Shown: positions 22,375-59,719 of the stretch, one piece after another
Numbering within the stretch: the first letter of the stretch is position 1
Layout: each line of letters starts with the position of its first letter
Source: Lota lota
Lineage: Eukaryota; Chordata; Actinopteri; Gadiformes; Lotidae
NCBI GenBank assembly: GCA_026745465.1
Contig: JACYXH010000446.1
Location: forward strand, 310,001 to 374,000
Direction of reading: 5' to 3'
Length of the DNA: 64,000 bases
Notes under the pieces: model-generated
What the model saw: only the letters and a program-made list of their open reading frames with translations
What the model was told of the DNA's origin: nothing
Database searches by the model: none
Position numbers and translations under genes: made by a program

Positions 22375-25300
22375 ATGGGGGACACGCAGTCTGCACAACG
22401 GGACGCCAAGGAAGATGCTGTGGAAGATACGGATAGTGGCCAGGCTCAGGATAGTGAAGTCAGTAAGGTGGAAGACAAGGTAACGCATTTTCATAAATAA
22501 TAATAATAATTGTAATACAATGATAATAGGCCTAATTCAATAAACTACAGCCCCGTGTAGACCACTTAATATATCGTCGTATGGGCCTATGTGTTTCAAC
22601 TTTAATTTGGTGATACTTTTAACGCGTTATAAACTCCTAATATTTAATCCCTGCCATTGTCATTGATTAAGCAGACACAGTGTCGATAACGCCTATATAG
22701 TGTTTTGGATTTAATTTGGTCGAATAAGGTAAACATTCCTTACAAGTTCCCTTTGTTTTGGTTTTGGGCTGTGCAGCTATTGTTGGTGAACCGTGTCAAA
22801 CTTCTGTGCTGTGGGTTTTTAAAGCACGCCTTCCACTGCAGTGTGTTGCTGCCAACATTTCCATTAAAGCATAGACATAGAGGTGGAATCTTTGTTTCCA
22901 TTGATTCAAGTACCATTCACTTGAGGAGATTAGCGTAGGCCTAATCAGAAAATGCGTTTAGGACGTTTTTAATCTCTTCTAAATAACAATATATAGCCAA
23001 CTTCCTGTTTACATTTGTGCCAGGAATAGGCACTTCACTTTAAGTTGATTCATTGACCTGACATACACTGTATATGTTGAAGATGGTCTGACATAGGCTG
23101 CTAATTGTTGCAGTAACAAATGTTTAAAATGAAGAAAAACAAGGCAGTAAATCACACAGCAGTATGTCCAGGCTAAGAAAGCCTTTTATTTTCTTTGATC
23201 CAATAATCTCATGGGAGAGATGGGATTTCCTTATTGCTGCACCCTGCACTGGGGCAACATTGATTATTAGTGTGCACCATCCCTAGTCTATCTTGAACAG
23301 CAAGCCTTACTGGCTGTCCTGCCCTTTAGGGGACTGCAAAGTTATTATTGTTATGCAGGATCAAATTACCATATGAGAACTCCTCCATATATGTTAGTTG
23401 TTGTCTACTTCCAGATCTGGATCAATGTCTGGTAGAATATATTTGAATTGGCCTCTGTGATCTGCATGGGTAGTAGCCCTACGATAGGCTATTCATCTCG
23501 AAATTATTTTATTTTTCTTATAATTTTAATGAGGAATACGGCGTGTGGACGTGTGGATTATTGGCTGGTTAATGTTTCTAGGATAACTTTAAATTATTAT
23601 AAATAGAGCAAATGCTGTCCTAACGTTACCTTATTTTCTTTAAAAGTAGACATATACAGTAAAATAAAGAAGAATCAGCTATTTATTCATCTTTTGTAGG
23701 CCGGTTGGCATTATTCATTATTCATATTCAAAGACAGTGGCACTCACAAATGCAGTGGAAAAGGTTTTTTACCATTACCCCCCACCCCCCATATGTATCT
23801 TCTATATCTACAGCTATGATGGAAATACTAGGCAACATGTGGCTTCATTCACTTCATGATTTGGTGACATAAATATTATATTGGTTGGCCATTATAACCA
23901 TTGACACAATGACCTATTTATAGACAGGGATTTGAAAAGAGAATTGCTGCCATTGCTGCTGGAGATTTGACTCTCACAACCTGACACAACTGCGTGACTA
24001 ATAACATATCCTCAAACATGTTGTGTGTGGATAACAAACAAAGGTGGACAGAGGTGAAAGCATGTGTGTGTCTGTGGATCTATGTTTTAAGATGGGCTAC
24101 ACCACCTGTCTTTGGTAAATAAGAAACAACAAAAGATGGTTACACTAACACCCTTGTCATGTCTAAAAAGTATAATTATTTTTTGGTGATTTAATGTATT
24201 GTAGTAGGTGTGAATGCGAATGCAAGGAAGCACAATAGTTAATCTAAATAATTTACTACATGTTTTACATTTCAGCTTCTCCACAATAATGCACAGATCT
24301 CCGGTCTGCATGGGAAATCAGATGATCCTCTAGCAGAACTAAACGATCACCTTGAAGATGAGTTTATTGATGATGGTAAGTATTTTTATACAGTGTTTAT
24401 GGGTTTCAGGACATAGATGGACTACTGTATGAATAGCCTCATTTACTGAAACAACACGATTTCCTACTTTGATTATGTTGTCTTTGCTACAAGTCCACGT
24501 TTCACCTTCTCCTCTGAAGGGTGACATCTTGTTTTCTCAGGTTCAGTCTGTGACACAGAATCAGCCCTGGTTTCTGCAAGAGAAGATGTTTCCGATACAT
24601 TTGCGACGGTGGACGACAAGGAAGCGCTGTTAGAAGACGTGGAGATCAATGATATGACCGATTCTGATCCCGATGCCGACGAACCAGCGCTAAACGAAAA
24701 AGAGGATAGGATGAACGAAATCAATAAAGGCTTCAGGAAATTCTTCAGCAACATCAGTCTGAAATTAACCGTTAAGCAGGGCACAGATGAAAAACAAGCT
24801 GAGATGGTTTCTGATGTGGCCGTTCTACCGAACGGAGAGGAGGTGCCGTGCAGCCTGGGGGACACCTGCGATGTGGCAAACAAAAGCACGAGCGAGACTT
24901 GCGAGAACAATGCAGATCATCAAATGGCACAGGACTCGGCTGATAATGAATCCACGACCTGCCCCACTGTGACGGACATGACATCTGAGGACACCCAGGA
25001 GAACGTGGAGCACAAAACCACAGTGGCTACGGAGGTGGATCAGGAAGCTGCAGAAGCAATTTTGGCCCAAGCCGACACATCAGAAGTAGAGCCTGAAGGA
25101 TCATGTCCACAGAACTCTGCTGAAGAGGAGGTCCTGTCTCCCATTAAAGTATTCTTTACAACAGGAATCTTTTCGAGTCTACGGAAGAAGAAAAAACCAT
25201 CAGAAGAAAAAAACGAGACGAATGAGAAAGAATCGGTACACATGGATAGAGAGGAACAGGGCAGGACAGAAGAAATTGGAAAAGACTTGGCAAAAGATGA

Positions 25301-28300
25301 GATTTGCCCAAGTGCTGAAAGAGCTGTGGTTGAGGAAAAGCAGAAAACAAAAGAAGGAAATGAGGAGGTCATACGCGAATCAGCCCAGACGAAAAATGGT
25401 CATGGAATCGGAGAAAACCTCGTAAATGCCAATGATGAACTGCTCAGTTCTGAAGAGAAGGTCAAATTTCAAAGTAGCCCACTACAACGTCTGCTTTCTG
25501 GGGCTAACTTGAAGAAGGTCTCCACAAAGCAGCGAGGGAGGAAGAAATCATCAGACACCACTGAACGCGTTACCTGCCATTTGCAATCGTCAGTAGAGTC
25601 AGCCGAGGCTACAACTGAAGAAAGTCCTGCAGTGGCTCCAGAAGAGGTGAAAAAGTTGGAAGAAAGTGCCTGGGAGACGTTGAAAAGACTACTGACTCCT
25701 AAAAAGTTCCAGAAAAGCTCCACTTTGAGCAACGAGGAGGTCGTCGTATCAAGCAAACCAGAGGAACCAATGCCAAGTGAGGGAGAAGAAATAGCAGATG
25801 TGGGCACAGAGGAGAGCAGGAAGAGGAAAGATTCGATTGTTTCATGGGACTCACTCTTGTGTGGTTCTGGAAACAGAAGGAGCAGAAAAAGTTCCAATGC
25901 TGATGAACAGAAACCTAGAACTGAGGGAGATGATAACAGACCAGCAGTTGAATCGAGACATGATACAGACCTGGATAGTTCACATGAGATAGATGATAAC
26001 TTAGCCTCTTCCCCAGAGCAGGGAGGAAGTCCCTCCGATGACGAAGGGTCAACATGGAAATCATTCAAACGTCTGGTCACACCAAAACGGAAATCTAGGG
26101 ATGGGGAGGAAACCAAAGAGCACACCTCAGATAGTGAAATAATCCAGGACGAATCATCCTTTTCATTAAAGAAATTTCTTCCTGGACGAAAGAAAAGGAG
26201 ACCATTTGAAAAGCAAGAGCAAGTACCTTCCGATAAGTCTGAAAGGGAAGAACATTCAGACGAGGAAGACTCGGATACACCAGCAGTGATTCCATTGTCT
26301 GAATTTGACATACCTGAGACAGAAAGTCAAGTAAAAATACAGGCAGTGATAGAAAGTCAAACACCTGAAGCCAAAGACCACAAAGGACAAGAAGAGGTCA
26401 CTGGTCAGACAACAGAAGCAATCATTATGTGTGATAGCACACATGCCTTGCCTAAAGAAACTAAGGACACTGACACTGCTTTAGAAAATCTGACATCTGC
26501 AACCCCTGCTTCCATGGAAGAAGTGGATGATCTGACAGAGTTTGTCAGCAAGCTTCAACAGCTCAGTGACATCCCTGAGGAAGGTCTAATCGAGGAGAGC
26601 TTAGCCACGCTTGCTTCATTTGCTGACGATGCAGCAAGAGACGACACCATTGCAGATGTAATAGAGTTCACATCTGAGGCTGTAACTGCACCAGAGCCCA
26701 TAGATATTACAGTAGAAGATGAAACGGAGATGGTTTCAGCAGTATCTCAGTTGACAGACTCTTCAAAAACATCTGGCAACACAACACCAGTGCCAGCAGA
26801 CTATGACGTCAAAGAAACAGACAACCTCCTCCATCAAGTTGTGGAATCAATTTCTGCCACCCAGAATGAATCCCTAGTGAGCGCAAGTGACCAGAGTCCC
26901 GAACAAATTGCTGGTTCTGTCTCTTGTCACATATTGGAGACATCAATATCAAAAGAACTCAGTATTCTGAAACCACACCAAACTTCAGATGGTACTTTGC
27001 TATGTACTGAGTTTACTGTTGAAGTATTTGATGCAATCGACAGAATTGCAGAGGCAGAGGGCTTATCAGACATGACGGAAGCAATTTCCACACAGTGTTT
27101 ATCTGAAGACACCACTGAAGAGTTTCATTTGGCTGGGATTTCTGTTGATGAACTTAAATATATTAATGAGAGCCAAGTTGTGGGACATTCTTCATCTGAT
27201 GAAAACAAGGCTAAGACCTCCGAGGTTTCGCCCCAGGCTGAGGATGTTAATGTGGCTGAAATTTCAATAGATGACTACAAGAACGATAATGAGCAAGCTA
27301 ATGAAATGGCACCCCCTGGAACAGACTCATATGTTGAGGTCACAATTCAAACAGATAATGCAGCTTTATGGCAGAAAAATGAAGCACTGGAGGACAAATA
27401 TGATCAGATTAAAGAGAGCAGAACTGATGATGAAGCACAAGTCCAAAGCGATGAAATGGTTGATGAGTCTGAAACACTTACACTTACTGATGCATGTGTG
27501 TCTATAAATTCAGAAGAAGTTAGTGTTGCACAAGCAGACGAGATGCCGGCCATGTCAGAAGCCACACCAACAGATGAAATTGCTAAAGGAAATCACTTAC
27601 TGAGTGGTGAACAGATGCAAGATGTCACTGAGCTTAATGTTGGGGATGAGGAACAACATGAGCTCTTAGTTGTAAAGGTAGGTGTTGCTGAGTTTGAACA
27701 TGTGGCAGTGTCAGCACCAGGTGAACCTGAAGACGTAATAATGAAAGCAGACAAGACTAGTAGTCAGCTACAATCATGTTCATCTGGTGACGTGGAGCAA
27801 GCAGAGCAAGGTGTTCAGGAACTTGAAAGCCAATCTATGACTGAAGATATTCCAGTACAAGACTCAACAGTACCTGACAGTTCCATTACCTCCACTGAAG
27901 CAAAAGAACAAATGCAACACACTCCGCTGGAAACAGAAATGTATATAAAAGAGGATGCCGCTGAGGTTTTACAAGATGCTCTCTACGAGGGTGGAGACAA
28001 AACCACAGAAGTAACAGGTGAACTGCAGAAAGAAACATCTGTTGAAGAGAATGTTCAGGTACTTGAACATAAGGTGATAACTGAAGATAGTCCAGTACTG
28101 GAGGATTTGACAGGGAAACATCTTGCAACTGGAGAGAATGAACCTATGGAAGTACCTCAGCACATTTCATTTGAAGAAGATGGCCAGATAGTTGAAATGA
28201 CAAATGAATTGAAAGAAGTAACGTCTATTCACATGACCTCTGTGAATCATGATGTTACTATTATTCAGGCAGTTGAAAAACTGGTTATAACTGAAGACAA

Positions 28301-31300
28301 TGCAGAGTCCCAAGCAGAAAATGCCCTTCCCTCATCAACAAGTGAAGTGGAAAAGGAGGCTGCGGCAGTATCGGAGCAAGGTTTGGCAGAGAAAGAGCTT
28401 ATTTGCAAAGTGAATGACACTCGTGAAGAACCCAGACAAGTTATAGTTCATGAAGATGGCCAACTTACTAAAGTTACAGATGAACTGGAAACATTGACTT
28501 CACTATCTGTGGCCTCTGTAATAACTGAAGACATTGCAGAGTCCCAAGCAGAAGAGGCCAAGAGGGAAGTTGAAAAGGAGGCTGCAATATTGACTGAACA
28601 AGGTTTTACAGAGAAAGAGCTTGTTTCCATCGATAATGACCCTTGTGATGAACCCAGACAAGTTTTAATTCTGGAAGATGGCCAACTAACTGAAGTGACT
28701 GATGAATTAAAAACATCGCAATCTATCCATTTGAGCACTCTGAACTCTGAAGCCAGAAATGTTGAGTTCCATCAAAAGCAATTTATATCAGAAGACATCA
28801 TAGGATTCAATACAGAAAATGCCAGCACCTCGATTACAGATGCAGATGAGAAAGAAACTGCGACACAGTCAGACCATTCATTGTTGGAAAAGGAGTTTGT
28901 TACTGTAGAGAATGACCAGAGGGAAGTACCTCAGCAAATTCCAGTTGAAAACTGTGGCCAAATCATTGAAGTGACAAATGAATTGGAAGAATCAACTTCT
29001 GTAGAAGTAGCCTCTGTGAATAGTGATGTTAGTACTTTTCAGTCACTCGAAAAGCAGGCTTTTACAGAAGATAACCTTGAATCTCATGCGGAGAATGCCG
29101 TTCCCACCTCCAGAGGTGAGGTTGTAAAGGAGACTGCAATAGTGACTGAGCAAGGTTTGGTGGAGAAAAAGGTTGTTTCCATAGAGAAGGACTGTGATGT
29201 TTCCCAAAACATTCTTGTTCACGAAGATTTCCAATTAACTGAAGGTGTAAAGGAATTGGAAACATTCAATTATCTCAATGTGGCCTCAGTGAATTCGGAG
29301 GTTGGTATTGCTCAGGCACTTGAAAAACTGGTTTTGACTGAAGACAATGCAGAGTCTCAAGCAGAGAATGCCCTTCCCTCATCCACGAGTGACGTGTATG
29401 AGCAGGGTGTGGCTGATAAAGAGCTTGATTCCAGAGAGAATTACCCTTGCGATGTACCTAGACAAGTTCTAATTCAAGAAAGTGGCAAACTAACTGAAAT
29501 GACTGATGAATTAAAAACATCGCAATCTGTCCATTTGGGCACTCTGAACACTGAAGCCAGAGATTTCGAGTTCTATCAAAAGCAAATGATATCAGAAGAC
29601 ATCATAGGATCCAATACAGAAAATACCATCACCTCGATTACAGATGCAGATGAGAAAGAAACCGCGACACAGTCAGAGCAATCGTTGTTGGCTAAAGAGC
29701 TTGTAACTGTAGAAAGTGTCCTTAGTGAGGAACTGCAGCACATTTCAGTTACAGATTATATCCAGGTCGCTGATGTTACTGAGGAGTTGGAACCAGTAAC
29801 ATCTACTCATGAAGCTTCTGTGGATTCTAATGCTGCCATCGTTGAGGTTCCTGAAAAGCAAGTTGTATCTGAAGACATCCCAGAACAAGATGGAGCCTCT
29901 GCCTCAGTGACAGCTGAAGTTGAGAATGAAACAGGGGTACTGATAGAGCAAGCTCTTGTGGAAAAACCACCAACAATGGTTTACGATGACCCTAAAGAAA
30001 TTCCCCAACAGAGTGTGGTAAAAGAAGATGTTGAAGTAGTTAATGTGTCAACAGAGTTTGAAGCTCCGCCTGCTGTTCAAATTGCACCTCTGTTCAGTAT
30101 TGTTGAGGTTATTGAAAAGCAAGTTACATCTCAAGACCTAGTATCTAATGCAGAGAATGCCTACCCTGTCATTACAGTTGAAGATGAGAAAGCAACTGTA
30201 ACTCAACCAGAGCAACCAGTGTTGGAAAAAGAGCTTTTAACTGTAGAAAGCGACCTCAGTGAAGAACCGCAGCACATTTCAGTCACAGATGATGTCCAGG
30301 TTGCTGAAGTCACAAAGGAATTGGATCCACCAACACATATTAATTTAGCTTCTGTGGACTCTAATGCTGGTATTGTTGAGGTTCTTGAAAATCAAGTTCT
30401 ATCTGGAGACATCCCAGTACCCGATGGATCCTCTGTCTCAGTGACAGCTGAAGTTGAGAATGAAACTGGGGTACTGACAGAGGAAGCTCTTGAAGAGCTT
30501 CCAACTGTGGACTATGACCCTAAGGGAATTCCCCAACAGAGTGTGGTAAAAGAAGATGATGAAGTAGTTAAGGTGTCAACTGAGTTTGAAGCTCCACCTA
30601 CTCCTCATACAGCCCCTCTGATTTCAGAGTCCAGTATTGTTGAGGTTATTGTAGAGCAAGTTACATTTGAAGACCAAGGGTGTAATGCAGAGAATGCCAA
30701 ACCAGTCATTACAGTTGAAGAAGACAAAGAAACTGTAACTCAACCAGAGCAACCATTGTTGGAAAAAGAGCTTTTAACTGTAGAAAGCGACCTTAGTGAG
30801 GAACCACAGCAAATTTCAGTTACAGATGATGTCCAGGTTGTTGAATTTACAAAGGAATTGGAAGCATCAACATCTGTTTATTTAGCGTCTGTTGACTCCA
30901 ATGCTGGTATCATTGAAGTTCTTGAAAAGCAAGGTGTATCTGAAGACCTTGGACCCAACGCAGTGAATGCCAGCACCCTGATACCAGTTGAAGACGAGAA
31001 AGAAACTGTAACTCAATCAGAGCTATCACTGTTGGAAAAAGAGCTTGTAATTGTGGAAAGTGACCTTAGTGAGGAACCGCAGCACATTTCAATCACAGAT
31101 GATGTCCAGGTTGCTGAAGTCACAAAGGAATTGGATGCACCAACACATATTAATTTAGCTTCTGTGGACTCTAATGCTGGTATTGTTGAGGTTCTTGAAA
31201 ATCAAGTTCTATCTGGAGACATCCCAGTACCCGATGGATCCTCTGTCTCAGTGACAGCTGAAGTTGAGAATGAAACTGGGCTACTGACAGAGGAAGCTCT

Positions 31301-34300
31301 TGTGGTTGAAGAGCTTCCAACTGTGGACTATGACCCTAAGGGAATTCCCCAACAGAGTGTGGTAAAAGAAGATGATGAAGTAGTTAAGGTGTCAACAGAG
31401 TTTGAAGCTCCACCTACTCCTCATACAGCCCCTCTGATTTCAGAGTCCAGTATTGTTGAGGTTATTGTACAGCAAGTTACATTTGAAGACGTAGGATCTA
31501 ATGCAGAGAATGCCAAACCCGTGATTACAGTTGAAGAAGACAAAGAGACTGTAACTCAATCAGAGCAATGTTTGTTGGAAAAAGAGCTTGTAACTGTAGA
31601 AAGTGATCTTATTGAGGAACCACAGCACATTTCAGTTACAGATGTTGTTCAGATCGCTGACATAACTAAGGAATTGGAAGCATCAACATCTACTGATGTA
31701 GTTTCTGTGGACTATAATGTTGGTATCGTTGAGGTTCTTGAAAAGCAGGATATATCTGAAGACATCCAAGTATCTGATGTAGCCTCTGCATCAGTGACAG
31801 CTGAAATTGAGAATGAAACTGGGTTACTGACAGAGCAAGCTCTTTTGGTTAAAAAGGTTCCAAGCTTGGATGCTGACCCTAATGAAATTCCCCAACAGAG
31901 TGTGGTAAAAGATGGTGAAGTAGTTAAGGTGTCAACAGAGTTTGAAGCTCCATCTCATGTTCAAATTACCCCTCTGATTTCGGATTCCAGTATTGTTGAG
32001 GTTATTGAAAAGCAAGTTACATCTGAAGACCTAGGATCTGATGCAGAGAATGCCAACACCTTGATTACAGTGGAAAATGAAAAATTAACGCATTCAGAGC
32101 AATCATTGTTGGAAAAAGAGCTTGTAACTGTAGAAAGCAACCTCAATGAAGAACCACAGCACATTTCAGATACAGATGTTCAGGTTGCTGAAGTCACAAA
32201 GGAATTTGAAGCATCAACATTTGTTCATGTAGCTTCTCTGGACTCCAATGCTGGGATTGTTGAGATTCTTGAAAAGCAAGTTGTATCTGAAAACATCCCA
32301 GTCCCCAATGGAGCCTCTGTCTCAGTGACAGCTGAAGTTGAGAATGAAACTGGGGTACTGATAGAGCAAGTGGTTGGGGGTAAAGCGCTTCCAGCCATGG
32401 ACGATGACCCTAATGAAATTCCCCAGCAGTGTGTCGTAAAACAAGATGATAAAGTTGTGAAAGTGTCAACAGAGTTTGAAGCTCCATCTCATGTTCAAAT
32501 TACCCCTCTGATTTTGGGGTCCAGTATGGTTGAGGTTATTGAAAAGCAAGTTCTATCTGAAGACATCCCAGTAACTGATGCAGAAAAGGCCTCTGCTTCA
32601 ACTACAGCTGAAGCTGAGAACGAAACAGCACTACTGATAGCACAAGCGCTCGTTGAAAAAGTGCTTATAACTGTAGTGAAAGACCTTGATGAAATTCACA
32701 GACAGTGCACTGTCAAAAACAACGATGAGTTTGCAGACATTGCAAAATTATGTACACCCCAAGTGCTTCAAAAACATGTTATACCTGAAGTTATCCCAGC
32801 TCCAGACACAGAAAATGCCCTTGATTCAATGACAGTGTATATTGAGAATCAGGGGGTCATACTGACAGAGCATGCTGTTGTAGAAAAAGAGATTCAAACC
32901 ATAGAGGGTGACCCTTATGAAGTTCCCAGATACAGTGCAGTGAAAAATAACGATCAGTCAACAGAAGTTACCAAGGACTTGGAAGCGCCAACAGCAGTGA
33001 AAATGGTCTTGATAAACCAGGAGACAAGTGTAACCGAAGTTTTTGAAAAACAACATGACTATGTGGCCTTAGTAGTGCCTGAACCCAGCCATGAAGTGGT
33101 CTCTACTGCAGTAAATGATGAGGGTGATATCAATAAACTTGCTGAGGTAGAAAAGAATGCGGAAATGGTTGAGGATGGTGCAGCAATGCAGTATGAAGAT
33201 GGTGCAGCAATACAAGCATTTACATGCGGCGCAAAATATGTCAAAACCTCAATGCACGATGATGCCAACACGGAAACACCAAACATTAGGGAACCTTTGT
33301 TAGATGTCATGGCAACTGAAGAAGAGCCCCAGGACACTGTAGAGCCTGTCAGGGTCCTGGAACCATATATGCAGGAGGACATGATAGAGATGGCCGAAAA
33401 AAGCAAGGGAGATGCTGAGATCAAATCAGCTGAGGAAGTGGGAGTCACAGATGCCAATGAGGCTATGGACATTGGTTGCAAAGTTCAAAATGAGGTAGAG
33501 AATGTCTCCACCTCCCTGGCAACAGAGGAGGAGATACTTGCTGAGATGGATAATGTCATCGCAAAGGAGGTGGATCAACAGGAAAACCAGACAGAAGTGT
33601 CTGAAGAAGGGGCAAAGGAGGAGTCTTGTTTGAAGGAAGAGCGTGTGTGCGCAGTACAAGTTATTGTCACTCCACCAACTGATAAACAAGAAGCAACAGA
33701 AATTACCCAAAGTGAACCAAGTGAATTGGAGGCTCAGAAAGTAACAGAAAACAAGTCTGATGCATCGATCGAAAGACAACCAGAAGTTCTATCCATCACT
33801 GAAATTGGAAATGAAGAGGAAACCGCCTCAATTCATGTTTTTGCGACTACAGACGATTTCTCCATAGATAAACCCAAAACATATCTAGATGAAACTAAAG
33901 TTGAATTAAAAAAAGAATCAGATGAAAATGTCATAGACGAGGATTCATCATGTTCCCCAGAGCTATTAGCTGCAAAGGAAATGATTGAGGCCAAACAGGA
34001 GCAAACTTACTCTTGTTACGTGGTTACGCCCAACAACACAGGCATGGTAGTACCTCAAATAATAATCTCATCTGAAAAAGTGCAACCAACTATTGAAATG
34101 AGGGTGAAAGAAATTCAAGCAATAGAGAATGTGGAATCCAACATACAAATGGAGGTAACTGAACTTCAAGTAAAGGAGAAAGAAGATCCAACTATTAAAA
34201 TTGAAGTGACAGAACTTCAAGTATTGGAGAAAGTGGAACCTAACATTCAAAAGGAGTTAACAGAACTAGGAACAGAACAGAAAAGTGAACCACTAAAACA

Positions 34301-35534
34301 GATCCAGGTGTCTGCGGTCGAAGTAAAAGCGAATGTGGTACCCAAAATACAAATTGAGGGAACAGACTTTCCAGCTACCGAGAAACTGGAATCAACTATT
34401 AAAATGGAGGGAACAGAGCTTCAAGTAACAGAGGAAGTGGAACAAAACATTGAAATTGCACTTACCAAGATTAAAGTCACCGAACGACCTGAAGATGTTG
34501 TCCAAGCAATAGAGGCAATAGATCTTGAGGAAACTGAAGTAGAAATTAAAAAGGAATTAGATATACATCTCATAGAGGATTCATCATTTTCACCACAGGA
34601 AGTAGCTGCGACGGAAATGATGGATGCAAAACAGGAGCAAACTCACCCCTGTGAGGTGGTTACACCAAGTGAGGAAGGAGAGACAACTATTAAAATGGAG
34701 GTAACAGAAATTCAGCTGACAGAGAAAGTACAACCCAAGATACAAATGGAGGTAACTGAACTTCAAGTGAAAAGGAAAGTGGAACCAAACATTCAAATAG
34801 CGTTAACAGAAATGAAAAACTCCTCAACACAGCCCGAACGACCTGAGGTTGGTGTCCAAGCAGAAGAGGCAATAGAAAAAGCGAGAACAATCAAAATGGC
34901 AGACGTACCCGAGAGCCTTCAGAAGAGATGGGTATCTGAGGTTTCAGTAACTCGGGTGATAGAAGTCACAGGACTGGTTAAAGAATTCGATTCAACGAGG
35001 GAGATGATTCAGGCGGAACCGGTGGTGCCCCAAGTTGGCACAGAGCAAGTCGTGTTCCTGAGTCAAACGGGGCTATGTCACAGTGTTGTGGGGCCTTTAG
35101 AAACAACACCGCAACACTTAGTGCACATCGAGCAAGCAGAGAGAGCCGTGCCATCCAGTCGTCCGGTTCAGCCCGAGGTTGGTGTCGAGGCGGCAGAACC
35201 CGTCCCACGAGGGGAAGAGGAACTGGGGCAGGATGTCTGGCTGGATGCAGAGGAGGACATTGGCAAGCAAGAAGGTGCAGAGAAGACTGAGATTGAACCC
35301 CAAGAGTCTGTGGAAAGTCAATGGGAAGGTTCTCAGGCCGATGACCAAGAAGAAGAGTTCCTGGATACAACTGGGCATGCTCACATTGAGGAAGAAAGTA
35401 GCCCAGAAGAAATACAAGCGATAGGAGAAATATATGAAATAGAGAGAGAAGGGGAAGACTTTGCTATTGCACTGGAGGATTCACAAATTAGGAATCTAAC
35501 AGAGACAAGTTTGATTTGCAAGGAGCTGGACTAA
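22375..35534 (+). CDS. akap12: A-kinase anchoring protein 12 (gravin/SSeCKS), greatly expanded
   Basis: Coding exons 22375-22479, 24276-24375 and 24541-35534 keep frame and give 3,732 residues, about twice human AKAP12 (1,782). The start is MGDTQS, a myristoylation signal (Gly2, Ser6) like the human alpha form. Exon 2 begins LLHNNAQISGLHG, matching human LLQKNGQLSTING. Scaffold motifs follow in family order: FRKFFSNISLKLTVK (about 131), SPLQRLLSGANLKKVS, WETLKRLLTPKK (446), VSWDSLLCGS-like stretch, TWKSFKRLVTPKRKSR (574), SLKKFLPGRKKRRP, and ETEMVSAVSQLTDS. These basic modules bind PKC, calmodulin and membrane lipids in gravin. From about residue 1162 to 2909 lies an array of about 20 acidic units, then shorter C-terminal repeats. 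The canonical C-terminal RII-binding helix is not evident. The stop is at 35532-35534. Confidence 0.95.
22480..24275 (+). other. akap12: akap12 intron 1
   Basis: Donor AAG|GTAACG and acceptor TTTTACATTTCAG bound 1,796 bases of AT-rich sequence. A C-rich tract (about 23780-23792) is present. No other gene or clear mobile element is recognised. Confidence 0.7.
27820..33060 (+). repeat. akap12: Coding tandem array, about 20 units of about 87 residues, in akap12
   Basis: Units share an anchor of the form EKQVxSEDIPV, then an AENA/VTAEVENET stretch, then TEQxLxEKELVTVES, then EVPQQ-like or EEPQHIS, and VTKELEAxTSVxxASVxS. About 20 anchors are counted, from MTEDIPVQ near 27840 to IPEVIPAP near 32780, a mean spacing of about 260 bases. 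The frame is open throughout, so it is coding and not a satellite. Some units are nearly identical at the DNA level (see findings). Confidence 0.85.
34080..34810 (+). repeat. akap12: Short coding repeat (about 18 residues) near the akap12 C-terminus
   Basis: About ten degenerate units of the form KVEPNIQMEVTELQVTE, for example KVQPTIEMRVKEIQAIE and KLESTIKMEGTELQVTE. The array is split by a second copy of a block (EVEIKKELD, EDSSFSPQE, AKQEQT, VVTP) also found at about 33890-34030. Confidence 0.75.
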
Positions 35535-37045: not shown

Positions 37046-37051
37046 TTTATT
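37046..37051 (-). terminator. rmnd1: Polyadenylation signal of rmnd1
   Basis: AATAAA on the minus strand, about 165 bases after the rmnd1 stop at 37217. Confidence 0.5.
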
Positions 37052-37216: not shown

Positions 37217-40200
37217 TTAAAATATGACTCTTGCCAGTTCAAACATGACCTTGAAAACAAGAAAAGCAGAACAAGTTCAGGATCTCCACATAGGAACTTG
37301 CTCATTCGTTGCCAAGACATCCAAATTTAACATGTATTCAATTAGAATAGATTAATAGGGCCATAGCATTATCATACCTGGTAAACCAGCTCAAGTCATA
37401 ATATTTATGGATGAACAAAGGCTTGACTTTCATGTCAATCTTAACAACATTGAGTCTGGAGGTTCATCATAAAGGAATTCATGTATGGAGTTCAGGTTAC
37501 CTCTAAAGTGATGAGGTATGGAGTTCAGGTTACCTCTAAAGTGATGAGGTATGGAGTTCAGGTTACCTCTAAAGTGATGAGATATGTGTTCAGGTTACCT
37601 CTAAAGTGATGAGATATGTGTTCAGGTTACCTCTAAAGTGATGAGATATGTGTTCAGGTTACCTCTAAAGTGATGAGATATGTGTTCAGGTTACCTCTAT
37701 AGTGATGAGGTATGGGTTCAGGTTACCTCTAAAGTGATAAGATATGAGTTCAGGTTACCTCTAAAGTGATGAGATATGTGTTCAGGTTACCTCTAAAGTG
37801 ATGAGATATGTGTTCAGGTTACCTCTAAAGTGATGAGATATGTGTTCAGGTTACCTCTAAAGTGATGAGATATGTGTTCAGGTTATCTCTAAAGTGATGA
37901 GAAATGTGTTCAGGTTACCTCTAAAGTGATGAGATATGTGTTCAGGTTACCTCTATAGTGATGAGGTATGGAGTTCAGGTTACCTCTAAAGTGATGAGAT
38001 ATGTGTTCAGGTTACCTCTATAGTGATGAGGTATGGGTTCAGGTTACCTCTAAAGTGATGAGATATGAGTTCAGGTTACCTCTAAAGTGATGAGATGAGT
38101 TCAGGTTACCTCTAAAATGATGAGGGATGGCGTTTAGTGTTACCTCTATAATGATGAGGTATGGGTTCAGGTTACCTCTAAAGTTATGAGGGATGGCGTT
38201 TAGTGTTACCTCTATAATGATGAGGTATGGGTTCAGGTTACCTCTAAAGTTATGAGGTATGGAGTTCAGTGTTACCTCTATAGTGATAAGGTATGAGCTC
38301 AGGGTTACCTCTATAGTGATGAGGTATGGCGTTCAGTTACCTCTATAGTGATGAGGATGACAATCATCCACTCCAGCCTCAAGCTATGCTTCTCACTCAG
38401 GTGGTTCCTCATCAGGTCAGCCAGCTCCGTGCAGTGCTGCAGCTTCTCATTCACCACCTGCGACACAGAAAGAAACAATGCCATTTTACTATAATTTACT
38501 ATGTAGTCATAAAGCAGACGCTTTTATCCAAACCAATTGGCTGCTGAGATTAAAACAACTGTCAATGTTCACAAAAACATTGAACTTCAACCCTGAACAA
38601 CCAAGTATTATTATGAAACACATTTCCCTAATCTAATCAAAAATATAAATAAATCACTTCAGATGGAAAACATTTGTGCAATATGATGATTGAGAAGACA
38701 TTTTGATAACCAGTAAGTAAACTTACAAACAAACAAGTAAACTGCACTATGATTACAGTATTACATTAATATTATCTGCCAGTCTGAGGATCTGCATGGC
38801 TGGAAACCACTCCCTTCAGTTCAAGAGAGACATCAGTTTTGAATGAGAGGATTTCTCATTATTAATACACTTTCAAACACCCCAAATATGTAGTAACAGT
38901 ACCCTCTAGGGTTTACCTCAGGTCATTGCGTTTAGTAATTTGACATGTTTTATGGACTTGCAGGTGAGCCAGAGAACAAGCAAAGCACTACATCAATATT
39001 AGAGAAACTACAAATAGTCAAGAGTTGTCCTCGAAAATACTGTACTTAAGTAGCTATAGCAATCAAAATAATGGATTTGATTGGTGGCTGCTAAGTGCAT
39101 TGGACTTACTGATACAGCAAAGTACCTGTATAGCAGAAGGGCACTGTACTAGTGGGGTTGCCACCAAAACAGCATCGTGATACTAGACAAAGCGGTGCTG
39201 GACCAGAAGAGCACCTCGGTATGGTAGATAAAAACAGGGTTGGACCAGTTCATCGTGGCAGGACCAGAGCACTAGAAACCACCAAGAGTAAGGGGGGCTA
39301 GGCATGGCCTTTTTGCAAAACAGCTCTGTGGGGTGCTGACGAACGTTTGAGAAATAGCCGTAGGCCTAGTTAACATTTCTGCTAGTTAGGTTCCTCCTGT
39401 TCTTCAAATGGATATTCCTCTTTATCAAATAGACATGTTCTTGACATTTTCTGCATCAAAAGTGATTTCAGTTCCCCCACGCAGTTGCCAGAGAGAGAGA
39501 GAGAGAGATTTATGGTAAGGCTTTGTGAACTTTAGCATGTAATCAGTTCAATTAATATGCTTTTACACACTTGACTACAACTAATACAAATCATAAACAA
39601 AAAGAGATAATAACATAATCTTCCTTCCTTTTATAGATGGAAAGAACATTTGTATTTCGAAATGTATGCTTTGATACCTGTTGGCCCCACTTGTTGTTAG
39701 TGGAAGTTTTCTTCAAAATCAGTAGAGCTCAAGTACAACTTAATTTACACCAAACCAACCTTTTTTTATCTTTGAACTTATATAATAATTTATCTAGCAT
39801 CATTAACAACATTGAAGTGGCCTATAGGCTGTACGGGTACATTACCCATTAATTAACATTAGTTAATGCAGTAATAAGCATTAATATATAGCATTAGCAA
39901 AGGGGTTTAGGTTTTTGTATTATAGTTCAGTTCTTGTTAGTTAAAGGTACTGGTTAGGGTTAGGTAGCATAAGTTAACTGTTACCTAACTGTTAGTTAAT
40001 GCCTATTACTGCATTAACTAATGTTAATTATTGGTTAAATAATGTGCCCTTTTTGTTAATTGTTACAAATAGAAGAAGCACAGGCGTACTTCTATTGCTG
40101 GTCTTAACTTAATTAACATTTGCTTTGTTTTGTTTATACCTACCAAAGAAAAAAGAGAAGTACCTCCTGGAGCAGTGTTGCATTCACTCCATCTGTGGTG

Positions 40201-40577
40201 TGCGTGCATGTGATTGACAGGCAAGATGGATTCCCCGAACCAATCAGGGAAGAGAGGCCCTGATTGGTCAGAAATGAGCCAGTAGTGGTCCAAAAATGAA
40301 GTCAACCAAAACTGATATTCTCACAGAGCATTTCACTCACTAACCGCTGGACGATGGCTATGGCATTTCTCAAAAAGGACACTCAAATGACAGCACTTGA
40401 ATCCTACCTTAAGCATCTTTAATATATTTGGCAGTAGGTCATGCGTACCTTGACCCGGCGGTTGATGCTGAGGAACATACAGGTCTTGTCATAGAGCTGC
40501 TCCAGGTTCTCTCGGTCCCAGTAGAAGTCTGGTGTCATGAGCAGATCTGAGCTCAGGTTGATGCAGTGTCTGTCAGG

Positions 40578-44628: not shown

Positions 44629-44709
<81 letters not shown>

Positions 44710-47700
44710 TGCACGCACACACACAGATACACATTTATGGATACAAACGCACACACACACACGGATACGCACGCACACATACAAACACAAACACACACAC
44801 ACACGGATACGCACGCACACACACACAAACATACACACACACATACGCGCGGATACGCACCAACACACACACATACATGGATACGCACACACATACTTGG
44901 ATTACGCACGCACACACCCACACACACTCACACACAAGGATACGCATGCAAACACACACACAAATGCATACATGGATACGCACAGACGCACAGATGGATA
45001 CGCCTGTGCCCACCATGCTCCTGCACACATGTGAACACATACACACACACACACACATGGATACACTTGCGCACGCACAAACACAAACACGCTTGCCAGG
45101 AACAGAACTGCATAACACACTGGCAAGTGTGACATAATCCAGTTCTAAGTGTAGTGGGGGGTCCTGTGTGTATGTGTGTCTCCAGGAGTTGGAGGGCCTG
45201 GCCGTGGGCAGGCGGAGCGGGGAGCAGGAGAAGCAGAGCCTGATGGAGCGGCTGGAGGCCGGCCAGCGGGTGGTGGAGGCGGCGACGCGGGAGTCCCAGT
45301 GTCTGCAGGGGCAGGTGGAGGAGCTGGACCGCCAGCTCCACAGGAGCCGCGCCGAGACCCAGGCGTCTCAGAGGCAGCTCCACCACCTCCTGGAGACACT
45401 GGCAAAGGCCTTGGGGTTGCCGGGCGACCCCGGGGGCGTCGCCGCGCAGGTAACCGAGGCGGACATCTTACGCCGAGTGGATGAGCTCTGCTCCGGGCAG
45501 CAGGACGCGAAAAGGGTGTGTGGAGGGGGATGCATGACACTCACACGTGCACACACACATACACACGGATACGCAAACAAACACATGTTGAATTATTGGA
45601 TCTGAGGGTTTTAGTCTTTTCAATCGATTTTTGGAAACTGAATATTTCCTCCCATCACTTTATTATCAGTATCACTGTAGAAGATAAATTATTGTGTTTT
45701 TGTTTTGTATTTTGTATTTTTGTATTATTTTTAGTCTTTTCATAACCCTTTTTAATCCTGTGTATGAAACCTCTTCTCCTATCCTATCATTCTTTAAAAT
45801 GTACTTTCTACCCTCTCTCTCTTCCTATCTCTCCCTTCCTATCTTTCCAATCCTCTCTCCAACCCTCTCTCACTCTTCCTCTCTCTCTCCAACCCTCTCT
45901 CTTCCTTTCTCTTTCTTCCTCACTCTCCCTCTCTCTCTCCCTCCAGGTGATGGAGACCAGACTGTCTGAGGTCTCTGCGGAGCTGAGCCAGCAGTCGGAC
46001 CTCCAGAAGGGGACGGAGCAGAGGGCCCAGCGGGCGGAGCATCAGCTGGTGGACCTGAGGGAGCGGCTGCAGGGCGTGCAGGCTGACCTGCTGGCTGTGG
46101 ACGCGCATCGCGATGCCCTCAGACACACCATGCAGCATGTGAGCACAGCAGACACACTGCAGACACACACACATGCATAGATGCACACGCATGCACACAA
46201 AGATGTCTGCCACACTTTGGATTCATACGAATCAATAAATTATCCTATTTATTTTATTTGCCTGGTGATGTGTTGTAGACTGTGTCTGTTTGTGTGTGTG
46301 TGTGTGTGTGTGTGTTGATAATGTTGGTTTTGCTGACTACAACCAGTTTGGTTCTGAACAGCACGAACAGTTCCTCGTGTTGTGATGATGAGTTGGTTTG
46401 GTTCCGAACAGCACGAAGAGTTCCTCAAGCTGTTGATGGAAACCATGAAGATAGATGGAGTGGATCTGGACCTGGGCGTCGACATGAGGCTCCGGCTCAT
46501 CCAGTCCCGGGCAGAACAGCTCGTCAAACAGGAAGGAACAGCCGTGGTGGAGAACAAAACGCTTGCCTACAGCCTACAGAGAAAGGTATCCGTAGCAATG
46601 ATGAATATAGCACGGTGTCTCATGAAATGGTGTCCGGTAATGTGCCATGTCACTGAAACTAATACTGTTAAGAGTTTTGTTACTTTTTCAAAAGCTAGCT
46701 CATGTCCAACAACGTACCTGAATTAACGCTTTGGGAATCAAAGTATCTCTTTGTAACTAACCCCACCTCCTCCTCCTCCTATTTGGCGCCAGTTGAAGCA
46801 GCAGAAGGAGCGTCTGGAGAGCAAGGAGCTCCACACGGCCCTCCTGAGGAAGAAGGTGCTGGAGATGGAGGAGCAGGAGAGGAGGAGCCACTCAGCTCTA
46901 GCCCTGGAGCGGGATGGAGCCCTGGGGGCCGTCCGCAGGCTCCACAAGAAGGTGGAGCGTCTGCAGAGCGAGCTGAACGCCGCTAAGCTCTCCAACGCAG
47001 AGCTCGGGGCCCAGGTGTCCGACAGCACCCAGCTCAAGGTAGAGGGGAGGCGGGTGCAGACATGTAGTCCACCCAGAGGCAGGGTCAGGTGACATTGAGG
47101 GCTGAGATCTACTGTGTGTGTGTGTGTGTATGTATGTATGTAAGAAAAGGGTAGGTCATTAGTTATATTAAAGAGTGGATGGGTTGTACTGTTGTCATAC
47201 TCTATCTTTAATTTTGTTTTGGTTCGGCCAAGTCTCCCACAACCAGATTTTTTTCATTTGGAATGAAGATATTGGATCTTGATTTTGGTCAGGTGGTTAA
47301 CAGGACGTCCACTGTTACTTTTCCCCCCGTTCACGTATTTCCAATGCTGTTGCCATGGGCCATTCTTTATGTGTGTGTGCGCGTGCATGTAAACACACAA
47401 GCTGGCCGTGCTGGAGCAGAGCGAGAGCCTACAGCAGCAGAGCAGGTCTCTGGAGACTCTGGCCGAGGGGAAGACCAGAGCAGAGGAGAGGCTGAGGGTC
47501 ATGACCTCTGACTTCCAGGGCCGAGAGCAGAGGGCCAGGGAGGACCAGTGGCAGATCGCCTCCCTCACACACTCGCTTGACCAGGTCTCCGAGAGGGAGA
47601 GAGAGGTGAGGCCTGGAGCAAAATATCCTTAACCAGTTTCACCTCATATACAAATATTGAGATGGATTTTCTTTTTCTTAAAATATGAACACATGAATGT

Positions 47701-48235
47701 GTAATTAATAGGATATTCAAAGTTACAGCAAATTTGTGTAGTTCACTTTTATCCCTGCTGTTATTTCTCAATGTAGGTTATTTTACACAAAGAACATAAT
47801 TTTTATGTTAAGGATTTGAAAGTAAATTCATAAAACAACCCCGGGATACCAGTCAGTGTACAGTGTATTAATGGAAAAAATAGAAAAGGTCAGCCTTCAG
47901 ATCCTAAACCTCTCCGTCCTCTGGTGTCTCAGCTGGTCAACTTCCGCATGGTCATCTCCCAAATGCTGGGTCTGGACGCCACAACCCAAGTCACCGTGCC
48001 AAATAACCAGATCATCAGGTCACTGGACAGCTTACTCCACCCTCCTCCTCTTCCTCCTCCTCATCTTACTCATCATCACCATCACCATCACCACCCGCCC
48101 CTCACTGGGTTCTGGCCGTGCCCCGCCCACCCAGAGCCTCACACGGGGCTCAGGGAGATCCAGGCCCAGCGTAACAGCGCCCCCACTGGCCAAGAGGAGA
48201 ACAACACCTCTAGGGCCTCGCACTCTGGGCCCTAG
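44004..48235 (+). CDS. ccdc170: CCDC170, coiled-coil domain-containing protein (Golgi/microtubule associated)
   Basis: Predicted coding exons 44004-44033, 44424-44606, 45186-45515, 45947-46138, 46412-46585, 46793-47038, 47402-47605 and 47933-48235, every one a multiple of three and phase 0. Total 553 residues; human CCDC170 is longer (715), so 5' exons may be missing or lost. The first exon (MMEVLENFDE) is the least certain. The rest is almost continuous Glu/Arg/Gln-rich coiled coil. Family-like stretches are MKIDGVDLDLGVDMRLRLIQ, RAEQLVKQEGTAVVENK and LVNFRMVISQMLGLDATTQV. The C-terminus departs into a Pro-rich run and His8 encoded by a CTC/CAC microsatellite before ending SHSGP. Human CCDC170 binds and stabilises Golgi-associated microtubules. 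Introns carry long CA/ggatacgcac repeats, and one acceptor is duplicated. Confidence 0.85.
44630..45070. repeat. (CA)n plus degenerate GGATACGCAC minisatellite
   Basis: Pure CA from about 44630 to 44705, then CA-rich sequence punctuated by GGATACGCAC at irregular spacing to about 45070, filling most of the ccdc170 intron 44607-45185. A short related stretch follows the next exon near 45550. The overlapping long open frames are His/Thr artefacts. Confidence 0.85.
45516..45946 (+). other. ccdc170: ccdc170 intron, CT-rich
   Basis: 431 bases with a long polypyrimidine region (about 45800-45945, CTCTCTCC/CTTCCT) leading into the acceptor at 45946. No other feature seen. Confidence 0.6.
46345..46435 (+). 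repeat. ccdc170: Duplicated acceptor and exon start in ccdc170
   Basis: TTTGGTTCTGAACAGCACGA (about 46347) and TTTGGTTCCGAACAGCACGA (about 46397) are copies offset by exactly 50 bases. The second is the real acceptor and start of the exon at 46412. The first would read HEQFLVL and then TGA. Confidence 0.85.
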
Positions 48236-49532
48236 AACGGCATCACAAGCCTCTACTTTAATCTAAACCCTCTTAGGGTCTCTAGCACAGAGGGGTAGGT
48301 TGATGCAATGGTCATGAGTTACTGATGAGGCCTGACAATTTAGTTTTCTAAGTTGTCAATCTTATCTAATGTATGTCTTCGGAAAGAGTCTGTATTTGTG
48401 TGATTGACCAGAGTTATAAAAAGAGACATGTCTATTTGTGTTTTGTTCGTATGATGCTGAATATTTTTGTTTCAATACATTTCACACATCATCGGAAGAG
48501 CATGTTTTACTAATGGAAACCAGGTGCAGTAAAATAAATACAAAAAACAAAAGACAAAGTCAAAAAAAGGATTTGGCATTCATTGTTTGTGATAGTAAGA
48601 TATTCATACAATATTGATATTCTTTTTTGTTCATCGTTATATACACATTTGGATAAATAATTCTGGACTGTTACAGATTTGAGATAGAGACATAGAAAAT
48701 ATACTGTTTTTCTATTCTTCAGTGTTACTCTCACGGCCATGATTGAAGTGGTTAAAAAAATACATGAGACAGTCAAGTTTATGGACAGCATATTGTAAGC
48801 ATGATCCCTCATGTGAGCGTGGCACTATGGTCGCCACTTACGTGATGCTAGCGTTTGGCGTCGTTGGTTTAATCACCATGGACGCACGACATCAATGAAT
48901 TCAATGAATTCGGGAGCATTTCATGTTAAAAAAATACACTATACATGACTGGCACACGGCAGCGGCGAAGAGATCGGGTGAATCAAAGCAAAAAAAGAGA
49001 ACAGCATGCTGAAAAGTACAAAAATAACTGCGATATATAAGATACTGTATATTAAAAGCTATTTTACACGTTTTACGACAAATAATAATTATCATTCGTC
49101 GTTACGAGCAAAAAAATAACAGGCTACATTTTCATCAATTTTTATCAAGTCGGACGTAAGTACACCATGCCATGTGCATTCAGTCCCTTCTTAAAACTCG
49201 CTCTTCCATCGGCCTCGTCTCTTCAGTGGCCAATCACACACTTTTTAGCTTTTTGTTGTTGTTTCTGATCGTGACAAAGAGGAAGCGTTTCTTTGTTATT
49301 TACAGAGGTATACACATCCTAAAAACAGTGTTATGCCTTATCCTATGTGCTAAACAAAAAAGAGATGATGAACCGTTGACCAGAAGGTACACAACCAACC
49401 CCCACATTTCTCTCACAGTTCTTTAAACAGCGACTACCGGGTTGAAGAAGAGAGATGGCCGTGATTGATCGTACCAGGTCATGATACCGGGTCAGAACGG
49501 CGTCAGACTCGAACCAGCAGCCCACCCCCTCA
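48236..49532. other. Convergent 3' ends of ccdc170 and syne1; no ESR1
   Basis: 1.3 kb of AT-rich sequence holding both 3' UTRs. AATAAA at 48533-48538 (+) is a candidate end signal for ccdc170. In human, ESR1 lies between CCDC170 and SYNE1; there is no room for it and no nuclear-receptor sequence is visible here. Confidence 0.6.
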
Positions 49533-50906
49533 TCACACGGGCGGGGGTCCGTTGGTGTAGCTGAGCATGGGGTAGAAGGAGTGGGCGAAGTTGTTGGACT
49601 GGCTGCAGGTGTAGTCCTCCTCCGTCATGGGCACGAGGAGGTAGGTCACGGCCACCAGCAGGAAGAGCAGGAGGAGCTGGATGGGGAGTGCCACCCAGAG
49701 GACGCGCCGCAGGAACGCCCAGGAGGAGGAGGAGGAGGAGGAGGAAGAGGGCTGGCTCCGGCCCGGCTCAGAACGGGAGGAAACGGACCCAACGTCGCTG
49801 TGAGACCTGGTCACGGTCACACACATACACACAAATGCACACATGGGCGCGCACACACACACACACACACACACACGCACGTATGGGCACGCACACACAC
49901 ACACACACACAGACACATTCAAACACACATGATGGAACAAGGCAACCGACGTGGTTTAGTGGATTGCGTCTCCTGCTAAGGACCTACACGTTCCCTCAAT
50001 CTTTTCGCTCTTGCGATCTCACAGTGTTTATGTTGAAATGGGGGCTTAGTATATGGCCATTTTCTTTAAAGGTTCACAAATACAAGCTATACTCACAATT
50101 TTTTTTTATCACATACTAATTGACTAAGTCTAATCTAATTTCACGAAACAAAAAGGCTAAACCTTTGCTGTAGAGCTCATTACGTGATTATTTGAATGTG
50201 TTTAACAATATACTCTCACGTGATTTTCAATCCAAATAAGATGTCGGTTAAATATGAGAAGGGACTTGGACCAATGCCTTGTGTTTGTCTATAAATTCCC
50301 CCCTTGGAAAGAAAACTCCCAAAAATGTGTACATAGCATTTGACATTGGTGATCTACACAGAAACCAAAACAGCAACACAATTCACAAGACAATTCAGTT
50401 TTCTTTTCTCCATAAAACAGGGAATGTATGCAAGCTTGCATTCCTTTGCAGAGGGAGGAGTTAGGGCAGAAGGCAAACAAACATGCCACTGGAAGATGTT
50501 TCCTATCAAAATAATTTAAAAGGCTTGGATCTCTTGGAAAATTGCAAAAGAGCATGCCAAGGCAGGAGCGAAGCAGAAAACACTTTAAAAAAGGGTAGTT
50601 TTTGTTATTATTCACCATCTGAATACTCCACCTCCCTCAGGAAAGTCGATCAAAACAGCCCGTGTTCTCAAACCTCTCAGTGGGCGTATTGTCTGTTAAA
50701 GGCCACTTCACACCTTCCTCATTTTGTCGCTTACACCTTCTTCTGTGTGGTATACTACTGAATACACTCTGTTATGCGGTCTCTAGTAGGCCCGGTGTTC
50801 TGTTCTGATCACACTGAAATGGTAGCGTAAATCTCCTCAATGTTTCCTCTGACCCCTTTGACCCAACATGGAGATGTGAGAAGATCAACTGATGGCAGAT
50901 TGAGGT

Positions 50907-50937
<31 letters not shown>

Positions 50938-52560
50938 GGATGGTGGATAGTAGAAGTAATATAAAGAGAAGAAGAAGAAAATGTCACGCATAAGGAAGAG
51001 AGAGAGAGAGAGAGAGAGAAAAAAACAGCAACTGCAGCCGTTGTTCATTGCAGACATTTTGTGACAGCTCGGTGATTCGAAGACAAAGTGTGTGTATGTG
51101 TGTGTGTGCGTGTGCGCGCTGCGTTATAGCATAAACGGGGGCGTGTTAGCTAAAGAGAGAACCTCTGGTTAGCCAAGTAGATCAGCCATAAGACGACGAC
51201 GGTGGGAGGGCAGCCTTGCAGACAGCGCCCCCCTGTGGAAGCCATGTTGCTACGAGTGTTTGGACCCACCCATCCCTAACCCTGCTCCCTCCCCTCTAGC
51301 CTAGCCTACACACAGGGTCTAGACGCGGAGAAGATGATGGAATCCATTGTCATGAGCCACCAATCTGGTGTCAAAACCACCATTGGGGTGGTGGGACAAG
51401 AGGGGACAAGGAGGTGAGACTGTGGGGGAGGGGGCGGTGGCAGGCCTTAGGAGGAGGAGTAAAGGGGAGGGGACGGGCGTGAGAGGTGGGTAGGAGGTGC
51501 GTGTGTTAGTAAACACAAACAGTGCATCATGGGTAGGATGAGTTCCATTATCTTCTGGTTTTGGGGGCGGGGGGAGGGGGGAAAGGTGCGCTACGGTCCA
51601 GCAACAGAACAGTACCTGAGGTGTGAGCGGCTGACTGGGGCTCCAGTCCGAGACACATTACTTTTGCCTCGTTGCTGTTTGCCATGAACAGGAATGGGGG
51701 TGAGGGGTGAGGGGGGTAAAACAAAGAAAGTATGTTTCAGTCCAGGCAAATAAAAGACAAAGCTACCCATGAAAGAAAGTCCCCCCAAAAAAAAGATATA
51801 AACATAAGGAGGAAGTGCAGCAACAAAATGGTACGTAAAGGCGGCAAGACAGTCGATCCAAGGACTTCGAGATGAGAGTTTAGTTTTCTCCAAAGCACAC
51901 GGCTGCTTTGAAGCGCTCAGTGGCTGTTGGACCGTGCAATCACGCCACAGACAAGCTGAGTTTATCTACCGACGTATAAACTACGACATGAAAGGTAGGG
52001 GTTGCTCTGAACACGAAAATGCTTATATGGATTGACGAACAAACGCGCTACGTCGTGAACCAAAATTGTTCCGTGCCCATAGTGTTGATCTGGGTAATTT
52101 GTTGTCAAACTAATAGTGCTGCCAAGGAGACACATTTCCTCAGAACAAGACAGAGCTTAAAACAATAGTCAAGTAGTAGTTAAAGCTAAATCATATTTAG
52201 AATGAATAGTAAGTTAAGTAAGCTAAATAAAATATGAGAATAGAGGAGGTATGCCTGGAACAAAACACAGCTAAAAATGGCAACATGTTTCACCATAAAA
52301 CAGTTTGCAACTGGTCTGCCTTGAAATGACCAAAGGTGAAAGACAACTTTAAGTTGTGTTAAGTGCTAACTTAACTTCAACATTTGAAGGCAGCCAAGAC
52401 ACTAACTGTTTTTCTTTTCATTATTTTCAAGTTGAAACAAGTAGCTTTTTTTGTCACCCGAAGAAATAATCCTTCGGTTAATGAGAAACCGAAAAAAAGT
52501 CCCCAAAGTAAACCAAGTTAAAACAACCAGAAAAAAAAGAGAGGAAGAGAGATTGAGAGG

Positions 52561-52650
<90 letters not shown>

Positions 52651-53150
52651 ATGATTTCTCTGTCGTTGTGCCGATGATCTGGGAATAAAGAAGATAATGT
52701 GAAGACAGGTCAAAAAAGCTTTTGGAAGGGGGATTGAGAATGTGTGGAGGTGGATGAGCCGAGGTCTGGGAGGTGGCCGCGGTGATTCAGGTGCTGGCCT
52801 GTGGTGCTGACTACGGGTTTGATGCACTTTGGACATCTGACCAGGTGTTTTCTTTTGGCCAAATCAATTTTCTTTCAATTTTTTTTAAAACGCTCTTCAT
52901 GACGCGCCGGGCGTGTGCACGTTACCGATCGGCGGCGGCTCGGCGTGCTCCTCCCCGACGCCGGGCTGACTGAACCGGATGTGTCCAGGTCATCAGCGGA
53001 CGACCAAGAAGACAGGTCCTGAGAGAGAGAGAGAGAGGGAGGGATGGAGCAGAGAGAGAGAGAGAGACATACGGACAGAGGGACGGACAGAGAAAGAGAG
53101 AGACAGACAGACAGACGGACGGAAAGAGCGAGACAGACAGACAGACGTAC

Positions 53151-53183
<33 letters not shown>

Positions 53184-53289
53184 TGGAGCAGAGAGAGAGA
53201 GAGAGACATACGGACAGAGGGACGGACAGAGAAAGAGAGAGACAGACAGACAGACGGACGGAAAGAGCGAGACAGACAGACAGACGTAC

Positions 53290-53320
<31 letters not shown>

Positions 53321-53867: not shown

Positions 53868-53902
<35 letters not shown>

Positions 53903-54178
53903 GGTGGGATGAGTGATTTGAGACATGGAAAGTGAAACGTTGTTCGAAGGCTTACGGAAAGATAAGAGGACACTTTATTAATCCGGAAATTTAGGAGATT
54001 CTGGTGTTGAGATAAGTGGAGGCCGACCTTAGTTAAAGAAAGCTAAGGTAAAATCGTCTCAAATGATTTTTTTTTTAATCCCAATGAATTGTAATGTAAT
54101 TTACAGTCTTTCACATGGACAGCAAAAAAGCATGATCGTGTGAAAGCCAAACAAAGCATTGTAGTATTACACTCACAC

Positions 54179-54218
<40 letters not shown>

Positions 54219-59688: not shown

Positions 59689-59719
<31 letters not shown>

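Follow-up and report, generated by a model that had tools for sequence, protein, structure and literature searches.

We analyzed a 64,000-nt stretch of the Lota lota genome (hereafter, the window; assembly GCA_026745465.1, contig JACYXH010000446.1, positions 310,001–374,000). The rmnd1 model built from the window occupied positions 42820 to 37217 of the minus strand and consisted of 11 coding exons; all 10 introns were of the GT...AG type. The product, 407 aa in length, contained the DUF155 domain (RMND1, PF02582; Pfam score of 175.9 bits with a gathering cut-off of 27, E 1.1e-51), and its best protein match was Lota lota P0001 with 100% identity. The Lota lota protein on record has 422 aa, its first 15 residues being absent from the model product, and carries the native last 10 residues, i.e., the end coded by the terminal exon. 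A protein search returned 1183 homologues at E <= 0.001; among the best 120 of these, the next gadiform matches were those of Arctogadus (86% identity), Merluccius (80%), and Gadus (79%).

On the plus strand, an uninterrupted open frame of 3641 codons (24609–35534) lay tail to tail with rmnd1 and contained a WSK motif (PF03832, E 1e-6); it is probably akap12, judging from the motif and from gene order. This frame contained about 8 copies of a 273-bp unit (91 codons, 62% matches) at 30097–32291 and 51-bp (17-codon) repeats at 34077–34267 and 34693–34813, all identified with TRF. A KASH domain (PF10541, E 2.5e-23) was encoded at 49539–49955 of the minus strand, and marks where a nesprin gene, probably syne1, has its 3' end; further frames, reaching to about 55.7 kb, resemble spectrin on visual inspection. 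The features of the 3' part of rmnd1 are listed in Table 1.

Table 1. Features of the 3' part of rmnd1 in window coordinates; a slash marks the exon–intron boundary or its copy.
Feature	Position	Strand	Details and basis
Penultimate coding exon of rmnd1 (exon 10 of 11)	38341..38457	-	117 nt; gene model, DUF155, 100% identity
Repeat seed CTCATCACTATAGAG, exonic half of copy 1	38341..38355	-	Unit comparison, 16-mer scan
Real 5' splice site, GAG/GTAACTGA	38333..38343	-	Predicted U1 duplex, -6.6 kcal/mol
Array inside intron 10, comprising 26 decoy junctions and a closing intronic half-unit	37483..38340	-	858 nt of the 1091-nt intron
First intronic unit	38309..38340	-	Read-through from the exon gives VTERHTSSL + TAG
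Decoy 14, the sole broken donor, GAG/ATAACC	37881..37889	-	AT for GT at 37886
Intronic half-unit GTAACCTGAACTCCATAC closing the array; unique intron follows	37483..37500	-	Unit comparison
Unique remainder of intron 10, ending in TTTTCAAG	37250..37482	-	233 nt
Terminal coding exon of rmnd1	37217..37249	-	33 nt: 10 codons + stop; gene model
AATAAA, possible polyadenylation signal downstream of the rmnd1 stop	37046..37051	-	Motif scan

Anatomy of the array in the last intron

A minisatellite adjoined the end of exon 10 and included its canonical donor. TRF placed it at 37490–38355 with a period of 32, 26.8 copies, and 90% matches. Cut at its donors, the array gave 27 junction copies between 38355 and 37483; the real junction, at the 38355 end, is followed by 26 decoys. 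Both counts agree with the original prediction, according to which the rmnd1 5' splice site had been amplified about 27 times inside the last intron. A tandem unit was also present as predicted; its proposed length of 32–33 bp proved too narrow, as the donor-to-donor spacings (n = 26) were 30, 32, 33, or 34 bp, with 32 bp being the commonest.

With the array removed, about 250 nt of intron 10 would remain, a length similar to the 96–266 nt of eight of the nine other introns of the model. The ninth of them, intron 9 (38458–40448, minus strand), was 1991 nt long, far from the sizes of the eight introns preceding it. Exon 10 thus lies between two long introns, and the array accounts for the excess of intron 10 only.

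The real end of exon 10 at 38341 reads CTCATCACTATAGAG/GTAACT. The exonic half of copy 1 is made up of the last 15 bases of the exon, and 16 bases match when the preceding C is included. Intron 10 opens with GTAACTGAACGCCATAC, followed by CTCATCACTATAGAG/GTAACC, and so onward through the array. The exon-end 16-mer CCTCATCACTATAGAG was found in the intronic array without mismatches four times, with one mismatch five times, with two mismatches 16 times, and with three mismatches once; all 26 decoys therefore matched it with at most three mismatches. Outside the array, nothing better than four mismatches was found in the whole window on both strands. Judging from these comparisons, the likeness between the exon end and the decoys is far beyond chance, and each unit does carry a near copy of about 16 final exon bases with the donor, as had been proposed.

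The motif AGAG/GTAAC was present in 26 of the 27 copies; the unit contains AG/GT, so both splice sites have been duplicated. Nineteen of the 27 units had CTTTAGAG/GTAAC or a close form of it, the remainder having TATAGAG/GTAAC. An intact GT was retained by 25 of the 26 decoys, which bears out the predicted supply of many intact decoy donors. With an acceptor-like AG directly before the donor, the units might also form a ladder of recursive splice sites, where joining of the real donor to a later AGAG would rebuild the same exon end together with the same donor, so that the mRNA and the protein would stay unchanged however many such steps took place. The decoys would do no harm under this scheme, which is the sole use for them seen by us that keeps the protein whole. 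The pyrimidine tract before the acceptor-like AG is short, and we regard recursive splicing here as highly improbable.

Fourteen unit types were distinguished, following each other in the order ABCDEDEFGHIJIKLMMMGNIMMMJJJ. The eight units nearest to the exon varied in length from 30 to 34 bp, while units 9–24 were all 32 bp long but one; units 25–27, the most distal ones, were identical 33-mers as opposed to the mostly 32-bp units in the middle of the array. This order bears on the accuracy of the assembly. Tandem arrays are error-prone, and the present one is known here from one assembly, so that its copy number could have been inflated or its copies mis-ordered. However, simple misassembly would not generate so structured a succession of 14 unit types, and there is very little probability that the array is an artifact of this kind.

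Probable origin and expansion of the array

At the end of exon 10 and just beyond it, RLEWMI..LI.IE followed by V[ML]FE was found in 120 of 120 listed proteins (the best 120 of 1183 homologues); within this set, the exon-end peptide is kept from cods to salmonids, suckers, and loaches. The exon is thus older, and the array was derived from it. The shared sequence alone could also have arisen in the reverse direction, from an intronic repeat the end of which was copied over the end of the exon; this order of events is scarcely credible for an exon end coding for a segment so widely kept.

The ends of the array were complementary halves of one unit: the 15 exonic bases next to the exon and GTAACCTGAACTCCATAC where the array gives way to unique intron. 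This is the arrangement expected if some 33 bp spanning the junction had been tandemly duplicated once. The claim that the array touches the exon end at 38341 and grew from the exon 10/intron 10 junction is therefore well supported by the sequence: the seed is exact, half-units are present at both flanks, and the exon end is older. Most probably, a segment with 15 bp of exon and 18 bp of intron was tandemly duplicated and then expanded to 27 copies via slippage or unequal exchange. The pair D–E repeated side by side and the identical neighboring units are marks of such processes. A 66-bp block of two units was repeated exactly, units 4–5 being the same as units 6–7 (38125–38256, minus strand).

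After the expansion, selection for an intact protein and for accurate splicing would have held only the first copy, and the other 26 would have been carried as intron. Passive expansion of a minisatellite, accompanied by leaky splicing at a low level, is in our view the likely explanation. With coding exon making up half of the unit, the array offers a clean natural example of a minisatellite whose origin is readable.

Predicted strength and use of the decoy donors

The predicted energy of the U1 duplex was -6.6 kcal/mol at the real donor and at 25 of the 26 decoys, in a model that credits nothing to the +6 U of the real site (C or A in the decoys); the broken decoy had -0.6 kcal/mol, and the other nine rmnd1 donors ranged from -4.6 to -10.1 kcal/mol. 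Given its +6 U, the real donor may be slightly better than the decoys. Since 25 decoys equal the real donor in predicted U1 pairing, a small fraction of transcripts probably takes one of them, while the first donor would serve most transcripts. These 25 donors could be used as a system for measuring positional choice of the 5' splice site by the spliceosome.

We translated the mRNAs expected for all 26 decoy positions, the broken one included, and obtained one common tail, VTERHTSSL, followed by a stop. The stop codon, TAG, lies in CTATAGAG, which derives from the exon but is read here in a different frame; all decoys share this stop because the first unit holds it. According to the original prediction, use of any alternative donor or read-through would replace the last 10 residues of the protein; their loss was predicted at every decoy position, but the tail that replaces them has nine residues, not 10. 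Mean hydropathy of the tail in 15-residue windows decreased from 1.65–2.31 in the native form to 0.46–1.54 in the swapped one, which is in line with damage to the predicted C-terminal hydrophobic helix.

The distance from the stop to the last junction was 2 nt for decoy 1, 35 nt for decoy 2, and 69–810 nt for decoys 3–26. Nonsense-mediated decay generally requires 50–55 nt between the stop and the last junction. By this rule, only decoys 1 and 2 are predicted to escape decay, and these would give a protein with VTERHTSSL in place of its native last 10 residues; the intact donors among decoys 3–26 would give mRNAs open to decay. Full retention of intron 10 removes the last junction and should hence lead to escape as well. 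On balance, the passive array would lower RMND1 output slightly, perhaps more so when the array is longer, if its length varies among fish as we infer; no selected function would be involved.

Two proposed benefits of the array were rejected after translation. Buffering of the donor against mutation failed, as none of the 26 decoy positions restored the native last 10 residues. In-frame lengthening by repeat multiples was excluded too: the protein is not extended, a stop being met within the first unit.

The array might otherwise serve as a platform that binds U1 or buffers the donor and so protects splicing of the last intron. Its enrichment in the donor core would suit this role, with 25 copies of GAGGTAAC inside intron 10 and none in the nine other introns of the rmnd1 model. 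However, the buffering half of the proposal falls with the translation result above, and a scan of intron 10 revealed neither AATAAA nor ATTAAA for U1 to mask, for which reason masking of intronic polyadenylation signals was rejected. A protective platform of either kind appears very unlikely.

The donor core GAGGTAAC was the least variable stretch of the unit, one of its eight columns being variable compared with 11 of 26 others. In a permutation test, the quietness of the core had a p value of 0.038 as a preset window and of 0.40 when any 8-column window was allowed; selection on the core is, with the latter value, not claimed. Drift does not specially predict a single broken donor among 26 together with a quiet core, and this counts weakly against the passive reading.

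Folding predictions were considered with regard to possible mutual pairing of the decoys, by which they would silence themselves and leave the copy at the edge free; this would be compatible with passive expansion. The sequence AGGUAACCU is self-complementary except for its middle base, and the predicted decoy–decoy duplex (-10.6 kcal/mol) was stronger than the real–decoy one (-6.6 kcal/mol). The real donor was the most accessible of the 27 in all three settings of the folding window, and replacing the decoys' +6 C by U raised their median accessibility about fourfold, from 0.00074 to 0.00311. When the spacers were shuffled freely, decoy medians as low as observed were obtained in 1 of 60 shuffles, and the real donor was top-ranked in only 3 of 60. 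On the other hand, copy 1 still ranked first when given the decoy sequence or the decoy base alone, so the base change of the real donor is not the cause of its rank. Accessibility of the real donor was similar with the array collapsed (0.0086 vs. 0.0105), and decoy values as low were given by 26 of 100 unit shuffles of the same composition that kept the repetitiveness. The accessibility pattern in these models is thus read as mainly an edge effect, and self-silencing of the decoys is considered unlikely.

Comparable arrays and genomic background

The closest known system is the VNTR of human ABCA7 intron 18 (PMC5954066). Its 25-bp units, of which the reference has 23.7 copies, adjoin exon 18 directly, and the first GT of the array is the donor of that exon. 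Use of the donor of the next unit leads there to retention of one unit, a frameshift, and a premature stop, at a level of 2 ± 1% of transcripts as we read the passage (PMC5954066), a precedent for the low-level leaky use proposed for the rmnd1 decoys. Both the ABCA7 and the rmnd1 minisatellites adjoin an exon end, contain the exon's own donor in their first copy, and have donor-like sequences further downstream. They differ in that, in the published description, the ABCA7 unit begins with the GT of the donor, whereas the rmnd1 unit also includes 15 bp of coding exon; the former array lies between exons 18 and 19, and the latter in the last intron, upstream of a terminal coding exon of 33 nt. 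Decoy use and length variation were measured for ABCA7, while the rmnd1 array is known from sequence alone.

A selected dosage switch is another possible reading, in which the ratio of first to decoy donor use and the length of the array would set the level of RMND1 through decay (decoys 3–26) or tail-swapped protein (decoys 1–2). The GT kept in 25 of the 26 decoys, their U1 pairing equal to that of the real site, and the convergence of every alternative on one stop would all fit such a switch, as would the inverse correlation of VNTR length with ABCA7 expression in PMC5954066; greater length goes there with more exon 19 skipping, too. The single stop, however, follows simply from its presence in the first unit, and conservation of the donor core was not significant once any window was allowed. 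Moreover, retention of one ABCA7 unit was constant across array length in the same source (PMC5954066), which speaks against an effect of rmnd1 array length by the one-unit-retention route. A dosage switch is therefore a doubtful explanation, and passive expansion is preferred; the array could nevertheless show whether array length tunes gene output.

Another human minisatellite, that of IFI6 (G1P3, 6-16), is credited in the title of Turri et al. (1995, doi 10.1093/nar/23.11.1854; cited in PMC4526556) with supplying multiple donor sites for splicing. In rmnd1, the repeat units likewise carry several donor sites, although candidate ones. The IFI6 units are reportedly 12 nt long and located at the exon end, with later donors in frame and adding residues, in contrast to the 30–34 bp spacing and the early stop of rmnd1. 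In potato, a tandem duplication crossing an intron–exon boundary made a new intron, as stated in the passage used here (PMC4974935). Duplication over a splice boundary multiplied splice signals in both cases, but the potato event was a single duplication giving a spliced intron, while rmnd1 has many copies. A paper on an earthworm minisatellite and exon–intron junctions was rejected as a precedent; in the part consulted, it is not about donors inside an array.

The rmnd1 array thus joins the known donor-carrying minisatellites at exon ends, with ABCA7 and IFI6 as human precedents. The array itself is confirmed; the rarity implied by the original prediction is weakened by these precedents. Its new features are the half-exonic unit, the site before a tiny terminal coding exon, and one tail for all alternatives. 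Among the open-licence papers listed in the literature searches, no report of this array was found. The occurrence in a fish of an array like that of ABCA7 suggests that VNTRs carrying donors recur and are searchable.

The codfish background of the array is rich in repeats. Tandem repeats are unusually dense in Atlantic cod, which favors the passive reading, and 21% of them were heterozygous in the sequenced fish according to PMC5241972, a paper with no matches to "splice" in its main text. Codfishes generally are noted for short tandem repeats in the passage seen of PMC13011446. In the window, many more micro- and minisatellites were identified with TRF at 44632–63946, including CA, GA, and GGA tracts and units of 60 to 139 bp, which is in line with the published repeat-rich genomes of codfishes.
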